58,169 bases of DNA, taken from positions 1-58,169 of IMG/VR virus record IMGVR_UViG_3300028559_000043; one strand, written 5' to 3'. Below the pieces are notes generated by a model. That model was not told where the DNA came from. It made no database searches and saw nothing but the letters and a program-made list of their open reading frames with translations. Every line of letters starts with the position of its first letter. Within the stretch, counting starts at the first letter, position 1. This stretch comes from a virus. The translations under genes were made by a program, and so were the position numbers. Below are positions 12,728-45,568 of the stretch, one piece after another.

Positions 12728-12751
12728 ATAAAGCCCCGAAAGGGGCTTTAT
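12728..12751. terminator. Bidirectional terminator between convergent genes
   Basis: ATAAAGCCCC-GAA-AGGGGCTTTAT: a GC stem flanked by A- and T-runs at the meeting point of plus genes (to 12727) and the minus peptidase gene (ending 12751). It can act in both directions. Confidence 0.85.
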
Positions 12752-13584
12752 TATGGATTGTTAACCGATTTGATAATCCAGTAGTCGCTACTCATATTAG
12801 GGTTAATTATTTTAAATGGCATATAGAAGTAACCTTTATCACCCCAATTTGTGCCCCAACTATTACGTGCAATAAAAACTTTCTTACGTTTATCATATCC
12901 AACTAATAATACAGCGTGACCACCTAACAATTGTTCACGCTTTGTATTTGGATAAGGCATAATACCTGTTCTAGCAACATTCTTTGACATAAAGCTATCA
13001 TACACACGGAAGCCCATTATAACTGGGTAGCCATTTGATAACGCATCAACACATCCATTGAAATCATTTACTCTTTCATAGCGAGTTACCTTACGATTTA
13101 GTGCATCAGTCTTTGCCTCACTAATTGGTTCTTGTCTAAACTTTCTAATGTCATATGGCCAGTAACTCTCTAAGCTTGCACCATAATGATTTGTTGCTTT
13201 AATGCCATCACGTATGTATGCACCACTGTCATAATTAACTGTGCCTAATAATAATCGTTCATAATAGTAAATGAACAATCTGCTTACATCAGTTGGCTTT
13301 CTATTGCGTTTGTTTAGTAATTCAATCGCACCCGCAATAGCTTGTCCAGTACAACTGCCTAGACTACCTTGATTTTCGATTGGACTGCAAAATGCTCGTA
13401 AGTCAACTATGTTAGGACTTGCTTTCGGTGTTACAGTATATTTGTAGTCACGTGTATCAAGTTTATCAGGTTTCCACTGAAAACTAAACTTGTCGTCAAG
13501 TGTCCTAGGTACAGCTTTAGGTACAGGTTTGTTGAAGGTATGATCCTCGTCAGTGTTTATGATTGTGCGAGGATCTTGTTTCAT
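12751..13584 (-). CDS. Papain-like (C1A) cysteine peptidase
   Basis: 277 residues. Oxyanion Gln72 and nucleophile Cys78 are in NQGSLGSCTGQA, the catalytic His223 in GGHAVLLVGYD, and Asn241 in ARNSWGTNWGDKGYF; all fit active peptidase C1A. There is no signal peptide. The 60-residue N-terminal segment could be a propeptide. It lies downstream of the fibre and LamG-like genes on the same strand, which suggests a virion-associated peptidase or fibre-processing enzyme; a host-directed protease is an alternative. Confidence 0.88.
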   Translation of the reverse strand: MKQDPRTIINTDEDHTFNKPVPKAVPRTLDDKFSFQWKPDKLDTRDYKYTVTPKASPNIVDLRAFCSPIENQGSLGSCTGQAIAGAIELLNKRNRKPTDVSRLFIYYYERLLLGTVNYDSGAYIRDGIKATNHYGASLESYWPYDIRKFRQEPISEAKTDALNRKVTRYERVNDFNGCVDALSNGYPVIMGFRVYDSFMSKNVARTGIMPYPNTKREQLLGGHAVLLVGYDKRKKVFIARNSWGTNWGDKGYFYMPFKIINPNMSSDYWIIKSVNNP

Positions 13585-20129: not shown

Positions 20130-20462
20130 TTACATTGGACTAAAGCTACTTCCGCATCCGCATGTAGTTTGTGCTTGTGGGTTGTTTATTTTGAATCTTG
20201 CCCCGGTTAAGTCTTCTATATAGTCAATTTCAGCAGTACCTAAGTACTGCATACTCATACTATCAACCAAAACACTTGATGTTCCGGCTGGAATTTCCCA
20301 GTCATCTTCATTTTTACTGTCGTCAAATGTGAAGCCATACTCCATTCCAGAGCATCCTCCACCTTGGACAAAAACTCTAACTCTGGTTTGGTCTGTTAGA
20401 CCTTCTTCTGCTAATAATGTGTGCATCCTAGCAGCCGCTGATTCTGTAATTGTTAAGTTCAT
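20130..20462 (-). CDS. erpA: A-type Fe-S carrier protein, ErpA-like
   Basis: 110 residues, full length for the family. The three cluster-binding cysteines are Cys37 ([11 protein letters not shown]) and Cys101/Cys103 (TTCGCGSSF). The segment [12 protein letters not shown] and the C-terminal sequence are closest to ErpA, which passes [4Fe-4S] clusters to apo-enzymes. The phage copy could mature its own Fe-S enzymes, such as the radical SAM protein at 1275, or sustain host ones. The ATG overlaps the SGNH stop (ATGA), and a GATAAATA octamer lies only 4 bases upstream. Confidence 0.93.
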
Positions 20463-21211
20463 ATAGTATTTATCTTATGCAGATCATTGTATAATTTTGA
20501 AGCTAGATTTTTATGACTTTCTATACCCAAATGTAAGTCTCTTGCATAGTCTAACCCATCAAAAATAAAAAAATCATCAGTAATAAATGACGGATAATTA
20601 GGTAATCCTATATTAAATATTGGAATATCTATGATATGTTTAATTTTAATTCTTGCCAAATGTTCAATAGTTTTAAAATAATGAACACCTTCTCCCTCCA
20701 TTAATGTCGGGTCTGCAAATCCACCCACGGTAGATATAGTAATATTGTGCAATGACTCATTGGTTGGTTCTTTGGTAAATCTTGCATATCTGGCCCAGTA
20801 TGGCCATTGAATTACTACAAGTTTAGGTTTTTGTTTTACAGAACCAAACCAAACAATTAAATTGTGTAGTAATACATCTATTCCAGAACCACCTACGCCT
20901 AAGTTGTAATAGTCACAATTTAGTGATTTGGAAAATAGATACGGGTAGGTCTTTTCTAATTCTAATCCTATACCCTCAGTATGACTACATCCAGCATATA
21001 AAATATAATTGTTTAAGTCAATGTCTTTGATTTCTTTACAACGATGCCCGTTGCTGTTACGAATATAACTAACTTGATTGGTTCTATAATACCAATCATT
21101 TGATTTTGATTTTAAATTTTGATTGTATAACTCTTCGGTATCACCTCCCGAAAATAATACGTTCTGGTTTTTGGGTTCATATCCTATAAAATCATTATTT
21201 ATTGTTAGCAC
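20459..21211 (-). CDS. SGNH/GDSL-like hydrolase
   Basis: 250 residues starting at GTG 21211 (TAGTG overlap with the IF-1 gene). The block I nucleophile is in [13 protein letters not shown], with Ser following Cys; Gly and Asn of blocks II and III are in NLGVGGSG and [17 protein letters not shown] near the end carries the Asp-x2-His pair typical of the C-terminal block. Such phage proteins may deacetylate or de-esterify host polysaccharide. It lacks a signal peptide. The partial protein at the right end of the window is a relative. Confidence 0.75.
20467..20474 (-). promoter_or_regulatory. Late promoter GATAAATA immediately before erpA
   Basis: The octamer ends 4 bases before the erpA ATG, inside the 3' end of the upstream gene. 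The predicted transcript would start at or next to the start codon. Confidence 0.55.
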
Positions 21212-21426
21212 TAACGTCTCCTTACAATACGCCCTTTAGCTAAATCATATGGGCTGAATTCAATTTCTACTGTATCACCTAATAGAATTTTAATATCGTG
21301 TTGACGCATTTTACCTGAGATATAACCAGTGACTGTGGGTCCACTGTTTAATACAACTCTAAAGACAGCATTGGGTAATACGTCTATTACCTTGCCGTCC
21401 ATTCTAATACCTTCTTCTTTTGCCAT
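21211..21426 (-). CDS. infA: Translation initiation factor IF-1
   Basis: 71 residues, the normal bacterial length. The single S1/OB-fold domain is recognisable throughout: [20 protein letters not shown] start, [32 protein letters not shown] end. The 5-bp TAGTG overlap couples it to the SGNH gene. IF-1 binds the 30S A site and sets initiation fidelity; a phage copy may favour phage mRNAs, for instance those without leaders. The AGGAGA upstream is unusually far (about 18 bases) from ATG. Confidence 0.93.
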
Positions 21427-33724: not shown

Positions 33725-34045
33725 TTATTCTTCTAGTAAATCAACTTTGTTAGGTTTATCTTTCCATTCTTCAGCATCGGGTAATGCAGGTTTCTTCTTT
33801 GTAATATTGGGCCACTTCTGACTTAATCTCATATTGATATCAAACCAAACACTTGCATTGGGTGTATCTTCTTGGGCACTAATTGCACCCACCGGACATT
33901 CAGGAATACATACTGCACAATCAATACACTCATCAGGATTGATTACAAGAAAGTTAGGCCCCTCATAAAAACAGTCTACAGGACAAACGTCTACGCAATC
34001 TGTGTGTTTGCATTTAATGCAATTTTCGGTAACTAAATGTGTCAT
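33725..34045 (-). CDS. fdxA: FdxA-type ferredoxin, [3Fe-4S][4Fe-4S]
   Basis: 106 residues, full length. The N-terminal cluster ligands Cys9, Cys17 and Cys50, and Cys21, Cys40, Cys43 and Cys46, follow the Azotobacter FdI pattern ([19 protein letters not shown], then [17 protein letters not shown]). The tail ([18 protein letters not shown]) is typical of proteobacterial FdxA. It would deliver electrons to a redox or Fe-S partner, perhaps the radical SAM enzyme encoded at 1275. It is a striking host-like gene in a phage operon. It overlaps the upstream gene by 4 bases. Confidence 0.93.
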
Positions 34046-39448: not shown

Positions 39449-40036
39449 TTATTCTCGTTTTTCGATAATTTTATCGATTAATCCATAGTCCAAAGCTTGT
39501 TTGGCTGACATAAAGTTATCACGTTCCATATCTTGTGTAAGCTGTTCAAATGTCTTACCTGCACTGTTATGCTTAACATAGATTTCAGTAAGATTCTTTT
39601 TCATCGCTAAAATTTCTTCTACCTGAATCAACATATCAGTTGCTTGACCACGTGCGCCACCACTTGGTTGATGAATCATATGTCGTGCGCTTGGCAACAT
39701 AAAGCGTTTATCTTTAGCTCCTGCTTGTGCAAGCAGTGAACCCATACTACAGGCTTGACCCATAACAATTGTTTGTACATCAGGCTTGATGAATTGCATA
39801 CAATCATAGATAGCCATACCAGCAGTTACACTACCGCCTGGGCTATTGATATACATTGAGATATCTTTTTCACCCTCAGACTCTAAGAACAATAATTGTG
39901 CAACGATAAGATTTGCCATTTGGTCATGCACTTCGCCTTCAAGCAAAATAACACGGTCACGCAATAGACGGCTGTAGATATCATAACTACGCTCACCTTT
40001 AGCTGTTTGTTCAATAACGATTGGGACTAGACTCAT
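39449..40036 (-). CDS. clpP: ATP-dependent Clp protease proteolytic subunit ClpP
   Basis: 195 residues. The catalytic triad is intact: Ser97 (GQACSMGS), His122 (HMIHQPSGG) and Asp169 near TQDMERDNF. Conserved [14 protein letters not shown] and the handle helix match bacterial ClpP. It would form the 14-mer chamber fed by the phage ClpX (44366) and perhaps host chaperones. It has its own promoter (16-base spacer) and a strong terminator, so it is expressed as a single early unit, away from clpX. Confidence 0.96.
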
Positions 40037-40065
40037 AAACTTCCTTTATAAAAATATTTCTACTA

Positions 40066-40093
40066 TTATAACAAGTGTTTATGTTGTTGTCAA
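40066..40093 (-). promoter_or_regulatory. Sigma-70 promoter of clpP, TTGACA-16-TATAAT
   Basis: Minus strand: -35 40093-40088, -10 40071-40066. The spacer is one base shorter than in all other promoters here and its sequence is unlike the cassette. Confidence 0.8.
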
Positions 40094-42278: not shown

Positions 42279-42533
42279 ATGATAGACTTTATCAAGCGTT
42301 TATTTGGCTTTTCAGCTAAACCAGTCGAGGCAGAACCGGCCAACGTAACTGCACCGTACAAAGTACCAGAACCGGCAGCTACTACACCAATTCCGTTGGT
42401 TGTAGAAGCAGTTGCACCTGTAAAAGCTAAAGCCCCGGCTAAACCAAAAGCTCCGGCAGCACCAAAAGCTAAGGCACCTGCTAAGCCAAAAGCCCCAAGA
42501 GCACCAAAAGCTAAGCCTACAACGCAATCTTAA
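42279..42533 (+). CDS. Ala/Pro/Lys-rich histone-tail-like protein
   Basis: 84 residues: a short amphipathic start (MIDFIKRLFGFSAKP), a Pro-rich stretch, then tandem units APAKPKAPAAPKAK and APAKPKAPRAPKAK, as in histone H1 C-terminal tails and some bacterial nucleoid proteins. It probably binds DNA non-specifically; the amphipathic N-terminus may instead touch membrane or protein. AGGAG precedes ATG. Its TAA overlaps the next ATG (TAATG). Confidence 0.75.
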   Translation: MIDFIKRLFGFSAKPVEAEPANVTAPYKVPEPAATTPIPLVVEAVAPVKAKAPAKPKAPAAPKAKAPAKPKAPRAPKAKPTTQS

Positions 42534-43234
42534 TGAATATAGGATTTGATGTTATTAGCGACCTTAATCTGGACGCTGAAGATAGCTTTGATTGGGAAAA
42601 TAAGGCAACAAGCCTATATCTAATCATAGCAGGAAATATAAGCAATGATTTGCGAGTAATACATCAAACCCTGCTTCATTTATCAAAATTTTATCGTGGT
42701 ATTTTTTACACGCCGGGTTCTTTAGAACACGATAATATGCATCTTGTAAAGAACAGGTACCTTGAAATATCTGAAATATGCAAATCACTACCTAACGTAG
42801 CACTACTTTATAGGCACGTTGTTGTATTAGATGGCATTGCTATACTAGGTGCAAATGGTTGGTATGGTAGTAAAGTGGATACTACTACTGCATTAGAAAA
42901 ACTTCATTTACACGCACAACACGTAGAAGATGTTTCATACATAGGTTCAAGTTTAGAAAAACTTCAACTACATTTAGATGTTAAAAAAATAATAATAGTC
43001 ACAAATTGTGCACCAGGTCCAGAATTATTTTTTGGGGAAGAACCAGAAGAAATTGCTGACCAGATCCCACTAATACAAACTTTAGGCCACGACTCTGAAC
43101 ATAAAGTATCTACTTGGATTTATGGTAGCTATGATAAAAATGTTGATACAACAATAGATAATATTAATTATATCAACAATTCATATTTTAAAAAAATACC
43201 TTATTGGTCTAAACGAATTGAAATAGAAGTTTAA
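42533..43234 (+). CDS. Inactive-looking metallophosphoesterase-fold protein
   Basis: 233 residues. It aligns along the length of a phosphoesterase such as the intact protein at 36590, but the metal ligands are replaced: SDLNLD (His to Asn12), AGNISND (Asp to Asn35), PGSLEHD (Asn-His to Ser63-Leu64), VTNCAP (His to Asn158) and YGSYDKN (His-x-His lost). Only Asp10 remains. The fold is probably kept as a binding or scaffold protein. It is coupled to the histone-like gene. Its end overlaps the convergent clpS by 4 bases. Confidence 0.82.
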   Translation: MNIGFDVISDLNLDAEDSFDWENKATSLYLIIAGNISNDLRVIHQTLLHLSKFYRGIFYTPGSLEHDNMHLVKNRYLEISEICKSLPNVALLYRHVVVLDGIAILGANGWYGSKVDTTTALEKLHLHAQHVEDVSYIGSSLEKLQLHLDVKKIIIVTNCAPGPELFFGEEPEEIADQIPLIQTLGHDSEHKVSTWIYGSYDKNVDTTIDNINYINNSYFKKIPYWSKRIEIEV

Positions 43235-43536
43235 ACTTCTGCTTCAACTTTAATCTGTAGTGGAAATCCTTGACTACGTGCATCAAGGGTCACTTCAATG
43301 CCTTTTTGTTCAGCAATTTCATAAGGCAATACAGCAACTACCGCACTACCCTGATCGTGAATACTCACTGTTAGTGATGATGCAGTATCCTGGTTGTAAT
43401 TGAAATATTCAATCAAACTGTTAACTACAAAATTCATACTGGTTACTTCATCGTTGAGATAAATGATTTTATACAACGGTGGTTCAGCCAAATTGATGTT
43501 GGGTTTGATTTTAGGTTTAGTTTCTGTTTTAGCCAT
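43231..43536 (-). CDS. clpS: ClpS-like N-degron adaptor
   Basis: 101 residues. The ClpS core is clear: PPLYKIIYLNDEVTSMNFV, a middle helix, then IHDQGSAVVAVLPYEIAEQKG and PLQIKVE. Residues lining the N-degron pocket are retained (Asn28, Asp29, Thr32, Met34, His60), with Glu30 in place of the usual second Asp. ClpS normally brings N-end-rule substrates to ClpA; no ClpA is encoded here, only ClpX. It may recruit host ClpA or redirect substrates to the phage protease. A hairpin separates it from hsp20. Confidence 0.9.
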   Translation of the reverse strand: MAKTETKPKIKPNINLAEPPLYKIIYLNDEVTSMNFVVNSLIEYFNYNQDTASSLTVSIHDQGSAVVAVLPYEIAEQKGIEVTLDARSQGFPLQIKVEAEV

Positions 43537-43555
43537 TTTTTATACTTTATAAAAT

Positions 43556-43578
43556 AGTGTGCGACATTGCCGCACACT
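43556..43578 (-). terminator. Hairpin between hsp20 and clpS
   Basis: AGTGTGCG and CGCACACT form an 8-bp stem with a 7-base loop; the minus-strand tail reads ATTTTATAAAG, so it is a moderate terminator or processing site. Confidence 0.65.
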
Positions 43579-43598
43579 GTTAACGAACATCTATTATA

Positions 43599-44048
43599 TT
43601 ATTTAGTGTAAGTAATAGCAATAGACTTGGGCTTTTGTTCTTCAGGAACTTCACGTTTTAAGTGAATACTTAAGATACCCAATTCTAAATGTGCGTTCTC
43701 AATTTCTACGTGATCCGCAAGACGGAACTCACGACGGAAATTACGTTCACTAATACCTTTGTGTAGATATGTGGGTTCTGTATCAGTTTCAATACTATTC
43801 AACGCATGATTACCTTCAATAATTAAAAAGTTTTTTTCTTTAGTTACTGATAGATTATCAGGACCGAATCCTGCAACAGCGAGACTAATCATATATTCAT
43901 CTTCATTAATCTGAACGATGTTATATGGGGGATAGTTTGTTTGTTGCGATTGATTGCGAGTTAGTTCGTCAAACATACGGTCAAAACCGACTGAGAACTT
44001 ATGAATAGATGGAATATCTATGGAACGAAGGGTTAATTGATTTGTCAT
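43599..44048 (-). CDS. hsp20: Small heat shock protein, Hsp20/IbpA type
   Basis: 149 residues. The alpha-crystallin domain covers about 40-140: YNIVQINEDEYMISLAVAGF, a loop, HKGISERNFRREFRLADHVE and ending LGILSIHLKREVPEE with the KPKSIAI tail. It acts as an ATP-independent holdase. T4-type marine phages often carry hsp20, perhaps for capsid folding or stress. It lies after bS21 and has its own AATAAATA late promoter with a 5' hairpin. Confidence 0.93.
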   Translation of the reverse strand: MTNQLTLRSIDIPSIHKFSVGFDRMFDELTRNQSQQTNYPPYNIVQINEDEYMISLAVAGFGPDNLSVTKEKNFLIIEGNHALNSIETDTEPTYLHKGISERNFRREFRLADHVEIENAHLELGILSIHLKREVPEEQKPKSIAITYTK

Positions 44049-44077
44049 TTTTTTCTCCTATAAGCAAGATGACATAT

Positions 44078-44103
44078 TTCAGACCCGACCATCGGCATCT
44101 GAA
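44078..44103 (-). promoter_or_regulatory. 5'-terminal hairpin in the hsp20 leader
   Basis: TTCAGA pairs with TCTGAA (44103-44098 and 44083-44078) and CCGA with TCGG (inner stem), loop of 3. It lies at the predicted start of the late hsp20 transcript. It does not cover the ribosome site and lacks a T-run, so it is probably stabilising rather than terminating. Confidence 0.6.
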
Positions 44104-44107
44104 TACA

Positions 44108-44115
44108 TATTTATT
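44108..44115 (-). promoter_or_regulatory. Late promoter candidate AATAAATA for hsp20
   Basis: It lies about 60 bases before the hsp20 start. A TATAAT overlaps it (44118-44113), but no -35 is in place, so the late class is more likely. Confidence 0.5.
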
Positions 44116-44153
44116 ATAATAAAAATATGCAAAAAATTCTACTATTTTGGAAC

Positions 44154-44369
44154 TTAAAATTCTTTCTTCGGGAGACTCTGGTCTCTCAAATACTTTTGCC
44201 ATCTACGTTTAGCCTGACTCTTTGCTAGTTTGCGTTTGATAGTGGGTTTTACATATTCTTGACGGTCACGTACCTCTTGTAAGGTACCATAGTCTGCGAT
44301 AACTTTTTTAAATTTTCGCAATGCTTTGTCTACGTTTCCATCCTGAACTAAAACCTTTCTACCTCTCAT
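44154..44369 (-). CDS. rpsU: Small ribosomal subunit protein bS21
   Basis: 71 residues, the same length as E. coli bS21. Motifs VDKALRKFKKVIADYG, LQEVRDRQEYVKPTIKRK and a basic helix KSQAKRRWQKYLRD align along its whole length. Several large phages encode bS21, which could be exchanged onto host ribosomes near the anti-Shine-Dalgarno site. Its start overlaps the clpX stop (ATGA), so the two are translationally coupled. Confidence 0.93.
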   Translation of the reverse strand: MRGRKVLVQDGNVDKALRKFKKVIADYGTLQEVRDRQEYVKPTIKRKLAKSQAKRRWQKYLRDQSLPKKEF

Positions 44370-45568
44370 ACTATAACTTTTGGCTCCAAAATTTGTTTTC
44401 TATCTATATTTATGTTTAATACCTGATTATCCCGATACTTTTTAGTGTAGAACATATGCGGCATCAATACACGTTCAATCTCAGTATGCAATCCACGTGC
44501 TCCTGTCTTAAGTGACATTGTATTTTCTGCTAATTGGTCTAGTGCATCTTCTGTAAAATTTAAATCAATGTCATCTAAACTAAGCAAATATTTGTATTGG
44601 TCAATATAGTTGTTTTTAATACCGGTCAATACTTTAATTAGTTCCTCTTTTGTCAAATCTTCAACATTTACTGTAGTAGTAAAACGTCCAATAAATTCAG
44701 GAATCATACCAAACTTAACCAAATCATCAGGACTAACATTACTCAAATCCCCGTCTTTGCGATGGTCTTTAATCTGAGCACCAAACCCAATACTAGTACC
44801 ATTCTCTCTACTGTTAATAATATCTTTTAATCCAACAAAGGCCCCGCCCGCAATGAATAAGATATTTTTTGTATTGATTTCTATCATATCACCGCCTGGA
44901 TGCTTACGACCACCACCAGATGGAATGCGACATACTGTTCCTTCAACCATTTTCAATAATGCTTGTTGAACACCCTCGCCTGACACATCACGTGTAATAT
45001 TGGCACTTTCACCCTTACGTGCAATCTTATCAATTTCGTCAATGAATACGATACCACGCTCGGCCAATTTAACATCACCGCCGGCGGCATTCAATAGCAT
45101 ACTAATCATTGATTCAACATCATCACCCACATAACCTGCTTCTGTGATACTTGTAGCATCTGCAACAATAAAGGGAACTTCTAAGTATTTTGCTACTGTT
45201 TTAGCTAATAATGTTTTACCTGAACCAGTTGGGCCTACTAGTAATACGTTACCCTTAGATATTTCTAAATCTTTTGGTGGACGATTAATACGTTTATAAT
45301 GATTAGCAATAGCAACACTCAATACTTTTTTGGCATTATGTTGTCCAATAACATGCTGGTCTAGAAAGTCTTTAATGGATTCAGGATCATATGATACCAT
45401 ATTTTCCGATACAAAATCACTTTTACTTTCCTCATCAACCATTAATGTGTTGCATAATTCTACACAAGTACTACAAATAGCTACCTCTTCACTTATAATT
45501 AATTTTTTTACGTTATCTTTATGATTACCGCAAAAAGAGCAATGGCTTAGTTTATTTTCTGTTGACAT
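44366..45568 (-). CDS. clpX: ATP-dependent Clp protease ATPase subunit ClpX
   Basis: 400 residues. N-terminal zinc domain Cys10/Cys13/Cys32/Cys35; Walker A GPTGSGKT (112-119); pore loop GYVG (145-148); Walker B VFIDEID (174-180); IGF loop at 260-262 for ClpP docking; sensor GARGL near the end. It is a complete unfoldase, shorter than the usual 420 residues only at the C-terminal tail. It should pair with the phage ClpP. A GATAAGTA, one mismatch from a late promoter, lies 5 bases before ATG. Confidence 0.96.
   Translation of the reverse strand: MSTENKLSHCSFCGNHKDNVKKLIISEEVAICSTCVELCNTLMVDEESKSDFVSENMVSYDPESIKDFLDQHVIGQHNAKKVLSVAIANHYKRINRPPKDLEISKGNVLLVGPTGSGKTLLAKTVAKYLEVPFIVADATSITEAGYVGDDVESMISMLLNAAGGDVKLAERGIVFIDEIDKIARKGESANITRDVSGEGVQQALLKMVEGTVCRIPSGGGRKHPGGDMIEINTKNILFIAGGAFVGLKDIINSRENGTSIGFGAQIKDHRKDGDLSNVSPDDLVKFGMIPEFIGRFTTTVNVEDLTKEELIKVLTGIKNNYIDQYKYLLSLDDIDLNFTEDALDQLAENTMSLKTGARGLHTEIERVLMPHMFYTKKYRDNQVLNINIDRKQILEPKVIV

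Follow-up and report, generated by a model that had tools for sequence, protein, structure and literature searches.

The virus contig IMGVR_UViG_3300028559_000043, a 58,169-base fragment of a giant phage genome that was analysed over its whole length (hereafter the window), carries clpX, rpsU, hsp20, clpS and clpP in a conserved cluster, and the leader of its hsp20 gene contains a conserved RNA structure, a conclusion that is well supported; we predict that this ROSE-like element is an RNA thermometer. The original prediction made for this DNA had the genes of the cluster right and overlooked the conserved RNA element before hsp20. Considering the window together with its relatives, we find it probable that the phage possesses a proteostasis kit made up of ClpXP, ClpA-ClpS-ClpP and Hsp20/DnaK, with control through the ROSE-like leader. 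The relatives were gathered in three IMG/VR searches, the best 80 matches per query being kept, and were reduced to 111 non-redundant groups; because the sample was drawn in this way, the cluster statistics given below describe this clade and not phages at large.

44042..44115, minus strand: ROSE-like RNA element, in which hairpin I shows covariation and is followed by a UUGCU opposite the Shine-Dalgarno sequence AGGAG
43599..44048, minus strand: hsp20, IbpA-like small heat-shock protein of 149 amino acids, above the Pfam cut-off

A conserved ROSE-like RNA element precedes hsp20

The gap between rpsU and hsp20, which is near-constant in length in relatives that have no insertion there, contains CTTGCTTA and an AGGAG directly before the start codon. 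We aligned 44 distinct sequences of this region with MAFFT, without fitting them to any structure, and then analysed the alignment with RNAalifold, which found double changes at 8 of the 10 pairs of hairpin I. Taken with the 5-pair closing stem, hairpin I accounts for 102 double-change cells; shuffling gives 31, and sliding the pairing partner gives no more than 38. Every one of the 44 aligned leaders has UYGCU opposite GGAG, an arrangement that is present at 95 of 98 hsp20 starts and at 1 of 65 open reading frames of the window; the three hsp20 genes that do not have the element directly follow dnaK, whose own start carries it. The GUCAU of the window element is able to pair with AUGAC at the hsp20 start codon.

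A covariance model of the element (R1) gives the window copy, which belongs to the training set, a score of 73.4 bits and, of 100 loci, detects the element in 96; the remaining four end before the hsp20 start. Since most of the 100 loci are close kin of, or included in, the set from which the model was built, the independent test is provided by cultured phages outside that set, and here the model matched Atu_ph07 (34.8 bits), PA5oct (33.8 bits), Cassandra (30.6 bits) and Phosso (28.8 bits), in each case at the hsp20 start. A search of 185 gammaproteobacterial genomes returned a single match, located precisely at a bacterial hsp20 start. The leader of this bacterial hsp20, in a 1.2-Mb gammaproteobacterial genome (L328:1501-1574), is scored at 43 bits by the phage model, and Rfam finds no match in it. 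At clpS, the model gave only weak matches, in five loci, and the UYGCU/GGAG pair was found in 0 of 103 leaders, and for these reasons we do not claim a ROSE motif there.

The element recurs at phage dnaK

A second ROSE-like element is located at another gene start in 24 of the 100 loci, and in the loci that we inspected the gene behind it is a complete phage dnaK of approximately 630 amino acids. Of the 111 groups, 31 have a phage dnaK, mostly between rpsU and hsp20, with full-length copies in or near the cluster at L084, L086, L089, L100 and L124 among others; the window has the hsp20 copy of the element only. All 29 distinct dnaK leaders contain the UYGCU/GGAG pair and, analysed as a set of their own, they yield 32 double-change cells, where shuffling gives 7.9 and sliding no more than 5. 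ROSE elements had previously had no association with dnaK (PMC4166951).

Several observations weigh against interpreting these leaders as ROSE thermometers. The sole suggestive Rfam match at the hsp20 leader of the window is to ROSE_3 (RF02523), with 26.9 bits and an E-value of 0.015, which falls below the gathering cut-off of 43 and thus outside the family as Rfam defines it; at the gathering threshold eight relatives had no match. Hairpin II shows no two-sided covariation, its evidence being the conserved motif. The GUCAU/AUGAC closing stem occurs in 27 of 44 hsp20 elements and is missing from the dnaK starts, which read AUGAGC. By computed melting and pairing the hsp20 leader could not be told apart from control genes, although the energy model takes no account of the G-G pairing of ROSE hairpins.

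It is conceivable, if rather unlikely in our view, that the hairpins at hsp20 and dnaK are mRNA-stabilizing or protein-binding structures inherited from bacterial ibpA that do not sense temperature. The restriction of covariation to hairpin I and the flat computed melting would fit such a role, as would the finding that hairpin I of the Pseudomonas thermometers does not melt and was suggested to be an mRNA stabilizer (PMC3669281). Against this stands the near-invariance, at dnaK as well as at hsp20, of the UYGCU/GGAG pair that defines ROSE elements.

The element lies within a conserved Clp cluster

The other genes of the cluster and its constant neighbour are as follows.

44366..45568, minus strand: clpX, 400 amino acids (516 bits with NCBIfam NF003745, whose cut-off is 359)
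44154..44369, minus strand: rpsU (bS21), 71 amino acids, above the Pfam cut-off; 4-nucleotide overlap with the clpX stop
43231..43536, minus strand: clpS, 101 amino acids (Pfam PF02617, ClpS, 83.1 bits against a cut-off of 23)
42533..43234, plus strand: metallophosphoesterase-like gene, convergent with clpS
39449..40036, minus strand: clpP, 195 amino acids (Pfam CLP_protease, 266 bits)

The coordinates first assigned to clpX, clpS and clpP, and the shared strand and the identities assigned to all five genes, agree with our analysis: clpX, rpsU, hsp20, clpS and clpP are intact, lie on the minus strand and match the corresponding profiles. The distances reported for them are likewise correct, the group from clpS to clpX spanning 2.4 kb and clpP lying 3.2 kb further along. 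Profiles, motifs and gene order all bear out the claim that the phage encodes a Clp set in a conserved cluster with the pocket of ClpS intact. The order clpX, rpsU, hsp20, clpS, an oppositely oriented metallophosphoesterase gene and clpP is found in 73 of the 104 non-redundant groups with ClpS, and the same order minus a detected rpsU in a further 15 of the 104. The gap between clpX and rpsU does not exceed 36 nucleotides in any of the 80 relatives in which it was measured, and the metallophosphoesterase-like gene is a neighbour of the cluster in 105 of 111 groups. The product of hsp20 matches the NCBIfam IbpA profile with an E-value of 2e-39, under its curated cut-off. The five are real genes under strong purifying selection; the median ratio of nonsynonymous to synonymous substitution rates (dN/dS) is approximately 0.10-0.12 for clpX, clpP and clpS.

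ClpX was said to have its motor motifs and docking loop, and indeed the C4 zinc finger, Walker A and B motifs, GYVG, RKH and IGF are kept in approximately 98 relatives. ClpP scores 308 bits against NCBIfam NF001368 (cut-off 249) and is a full-length bacterial-type ClpP, whose catalytic triad (Ser97/His122/Asp173), also noted previously, is complete and is kept in 99 of 99 sequences. In the alignment it starts where mature E. coli ClpP starts, indicating that the phage protein has no propeptide.

ClpS and its probable partner ClpA

ClpS had been said to keep most of its N-degron pocket residues, and N34, D35, T38, V43, H66 and L99 are indeed present in 102 of 102 phage ClpS sequences, all of which also have E79 and a lysine or arginine at position 84; we take E79 and K84 to be the contacts with ClpA, as in E. 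coli structure work. Methionine 62 is replaced by threonine in 101 of the 102 phage sequences and by serine in one. We rejected M62T as a phage-specific change of the pocket, some bacterial ClpS also carrying Thr62. The N-terminal extension ends in Pro-Pro, a junction by which E. coli ClpS escapes degradation. A fold predicted by AlphaFold with 21 phage relatives superposes on the Caulobacter and E. coli ClpS crystal structures with root mean square deviations of approximately 0.8-1.9 Å; a single-sequence model was poor, with a predicted local distance difference test (pLDDT) score of 41.

Some further ClpS sequences came to our attention. A phage-type ClpS (L249:202-507; 62% identical) lies at the end of an actinobacterial metagenome-assembled genome contig with ParA, ScpA and ScpB-like genes, which we read as a chimera or a transfer from a phage. 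The contig labelled "Acinetobacter phage MD-2021a" (L245, CAKLQH020000043) was set aside as a source of a close phage ClpS, given that its clpS-clpA pair adjoins argC and aroF and looks bacterial. Nor do we claim an origin of this ClpS in Bacteroidetes: in the Bacteroidota sample most genomes match the ClpS profile partially, and the residue alignment is unreliable.

The original prediction had paired ClpS with ClpX, which our analysis does not support: ClpS docks on the N-domain and pore of ClpA, and cryo-EM places its N-terminal extension inside the ClpA channel, in addition to the N-domain contact (PMC9663308). Among 48 phage records searched, all contain ClpS and 19 encode a Clp_N protein, including all of the 13 longest (at least 116 kb), whereas most records shorter than 116 kb do not. 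The clpA open reading frames of these 13 relatives encode proteins of 750-773 amino acids that are approximately 40-44% identical to E. coli ClpA, with an E. coli-like Clp_N domain, two AAA+ modules and a docking loop reading IGF where E. coli has IGL. Because phage ClpX and phage ClpA both carry IGF, they share one ClpP-docking signal, and because the long relatives encode clpA elsewhere in the genome, the Clp system is more complete than first proposed. Given that ClpS is an adaptor of ClpA and that the 13 longest relatives encode ClpA, the likeliest arrangement is that the phage encodes a ClpA-ClpP-ClpS set as well as ClpXP, with ClpA presumably also encoded in the genome from which the window derives. 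Three points count against it: clpA was not seen within the 58-kb window, the ClpS of the window falls under the NCBIfam equivalog cut-offs (73.6 against 149), and the ClpA proteins of the relatives, for which TIGR02639 is the best match, score 782, under its cut-off of 993. The redirection of proteolysis toward host N-degron proteins suggested in the original prediction is a conjecture that our analysis does not support; the L/F-transferase, which makes N-degrons, was not found in the 48 records.

We consider it improbable that phage ClpS instead serves mainly the ClpA(P) of the host, a reading, close to the original prediction, in which host ClpAP would be drawn away from its normal substrates toward N-degron proteins and phage ClpXP would act on its own. 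The ClpA-contact residues of phage ClpS equal those of bacterial ClpS, and the review of Iyer et al. (2021) proposed that ClpS feeds host ClpAP in phages that encode it (PMC7824862). Relatives long enough to judge, however, encode their own ClpA, which makes a host partner unnecessary; both partners could be used.

Promoters of the cluster

40065..40093, minus strand (40093-40065): clpP sigma-70-type promoter, TTGACA-N17-TATAAT with TG before the -10
43556..43598, minus strand: TATAAT at 43598-43593, then a strong hairpin at 43578-43556, just upstream of clpS

A promoter had been assigned to clpP, and we found a perfect TTGACA-N17-TATAAT at this position. There are 14 such perfect sites in the window (3762-55101), compared with an expectation of 0.05, and these are probably strong early phage promoters; most of them have a similar spacer, like TTGACAATAAATGGATTTGGGT. 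The T4-type late promoter sequences TATAAATA and ATAAATAC showed no enrichment. In relatives, hairpins of varying sequence are found at the place that matches the hairpin before clpS, which could be a terminator for hsp20 or a structured clpS leader. Since clpS has its own TATAAT and an upstream hairpin, the four-gene cluster need not form one operon.

Source of the window and other genes

The IMG/VR relatives of the window reach approximately 367 kb, and 524 kb in one seemingly duplicated record. This record, IMGVR_UViG_3300027749_002876 (524,565 bases; L009, L084), contains clpX, clpP, clpS and clpA each twice and may join two phages, either as a chimera or by concatenation. A T4-type gp23 major capsid protein is encoded by 9 of 13 long relatives, and that of one long relative is closest to the capsid proteins of Vibrio phage 2.275.O and of the PA5oct group, with approximately 66-67% identity. 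No tRNA genes were found in the 58,169 bases of the window. Elsewhere the window encodes initiation factor IF-1 (21211-21426), an IscA/ErpA-type iron-sulphur protein (20130-20462), a ferredoxin (33725-34045) and a papain-family (C1) cysteine protease (12751-13584) that adjoins lectin-like and other large unannotated genes.

A model for phage proteostasis

In the model that we propose, phage ClpP would form the peptidase, on which ClpX would dock via IGF to degrade specific targets. ClpA, encoded elsewhere in the genome, would likewise dock on ClpP via IGF and would take N-degron substrates from phage ClpS, whose Pro-Pro extension would enter the ClpA pore while its pocket grips the N-terminal residue of the substrate. 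Hsp20, joined in about a quarter of relatives by DnaK, may hold or refold proteins during virion production. The ROSE-like leader would throttle the synthesis of Hsp20 and DnaK by means of a stable hairpin I followed by a weak hairpin in which UUGCU pairs with the Shine-Dalgarno sequence, and this putative pairing of hairpin II would open with rising temperature. That a large group of giant phages owns a heat-shock regulon, with ROSE-type thermometers before Hsp20 and DnaK in a ClpX-S21-Hsp20-ClpS-ClpP cluster, is a claim that we judge evenly balanced between right and wrong.

A role of the Clp genes in virion assembly, with ClpP as head-maturation protease and ClpX as remodeller, has been raised by the authors of Atu_ph07 (PMC6102473) and agrees with PHROGs, which places ClpP-like proteins of phages under head maturation protease, but it is very unlikely here, since the window ClpP falls under the head-maturation ClpP cut-off (108 against 120) while scoring 308 bits as a bacterial-type NF001368 protein, and the cluster lies far from gp23 in the longest relatives (in G001, for example, at 3.4 kb as against approximately 250 kb).

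Phages are usually viewed as borrowing the chaperones and proteases of the host, whereas this group has chaperones and a full Clp set of its own, and temperature control is apparently written into its chaperone mRNA. If the model is right, the phage would need no regulatory protein to tune protein folding to host temperature. The open-licence literature yielded no report of phage ROSE elements, or of phage Hsp20 or dnaK thermometers; as far as we have found, ROSE thermometers would here be seen for the first time in viruses and for the first time before dnaK. The PA5oct group offers a cultured system for both the thermometer and the phage ClpA-ClpS-ClpP pathway.

Comparison with known systems

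The presence of ClpS in a phage, which had been called striking, is not so in itself, for the cultured phages Atu_ph07, PA5oct and Phosso have ClpS, and as early as 2018 ClpX, ClpA, ClpB, ClpP and ClpS were listed for Atu_ph07 (PMC6102473); the Clp kit itself is already known from cultured giant phages. Chen 2022 (PMC9723584) counted the neighbours of bS21 in 900 published phages, with figures of 127 for Hsp20 and of 50 and 47 for two Clp families; the sections of that paper drawn on here do not describe gene order, ClpS, ClpA or RNA elements, and they give its own phages predicted Bacteroidetes hosts and bS21 in the structural region.

The kin of PA5oct belong to Wroclawvirus, Arenbergviridae (PA5oct and Cassandra; also Paride and MIJ3). 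PA5oct resembles the window in the arrangement of clpX, rpsU, hsp20 and clpS, which have an identical order and share a strand within 3.2 kb, with clpP 7.5 kb and a clpA-like gene approximately 21 kb beyond this four-gene cluster, and its group shares the ROSE-like element at hsp20 and a major capsid protein approximately 66% identical to that of the long relative. It differs in two added genes between rpsU and hsp20, in a ClpS that is 27.5% identical and retains Met62, and in the docking tripeptide of ClpX, which is MGF where the window has IGF. Atu_ph07 and Phosso likewise have ClpX, ClpP (69% identical), ClpS and Hsp20, keep the relative order of clpX, hsp20 and clpS, and carry a ROSE-like element at hsp20; unlike in the window, their genes extend over many kb, with a thymidine kinase between hsp20 and clpS. 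In Phosso Clp_N was not detected. The ClpS of Atu_ph07 (L247:26272-26574) is changed at the pocket residues H66, N34 and L99, so that its usual mode of N-degron binding may be lost. Rfam gives no match in PA5oct and Phosso, and scores Atu_ph07 at 28.0 bits for ROSE_3, under the gathering cut-off of 43.

The closest likeness of the RNA element is to the short ROSE-like thermometers of Pseudomonas ibpA (Krajewski 2013, PMC3669281), which also consist of two hairpins with U(U/C)GCU opposite the Shine-Dalgarno sequence and also lie 5′ of a small heat-shock gene. The phage element differs from these in that its GUCAU/AUGAC stem may take in the start codon, a codon left unpaired in Pseudomonas, and from known ROSE elements in general in being located in phages, in scoring under the Rfam cut-off and in occurring also before dnaK. 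The letters of its hairpin I are near-identical to those of Rfam ROSE_3 (RF02523), reading GAUGCCGA..UCGGGUC.

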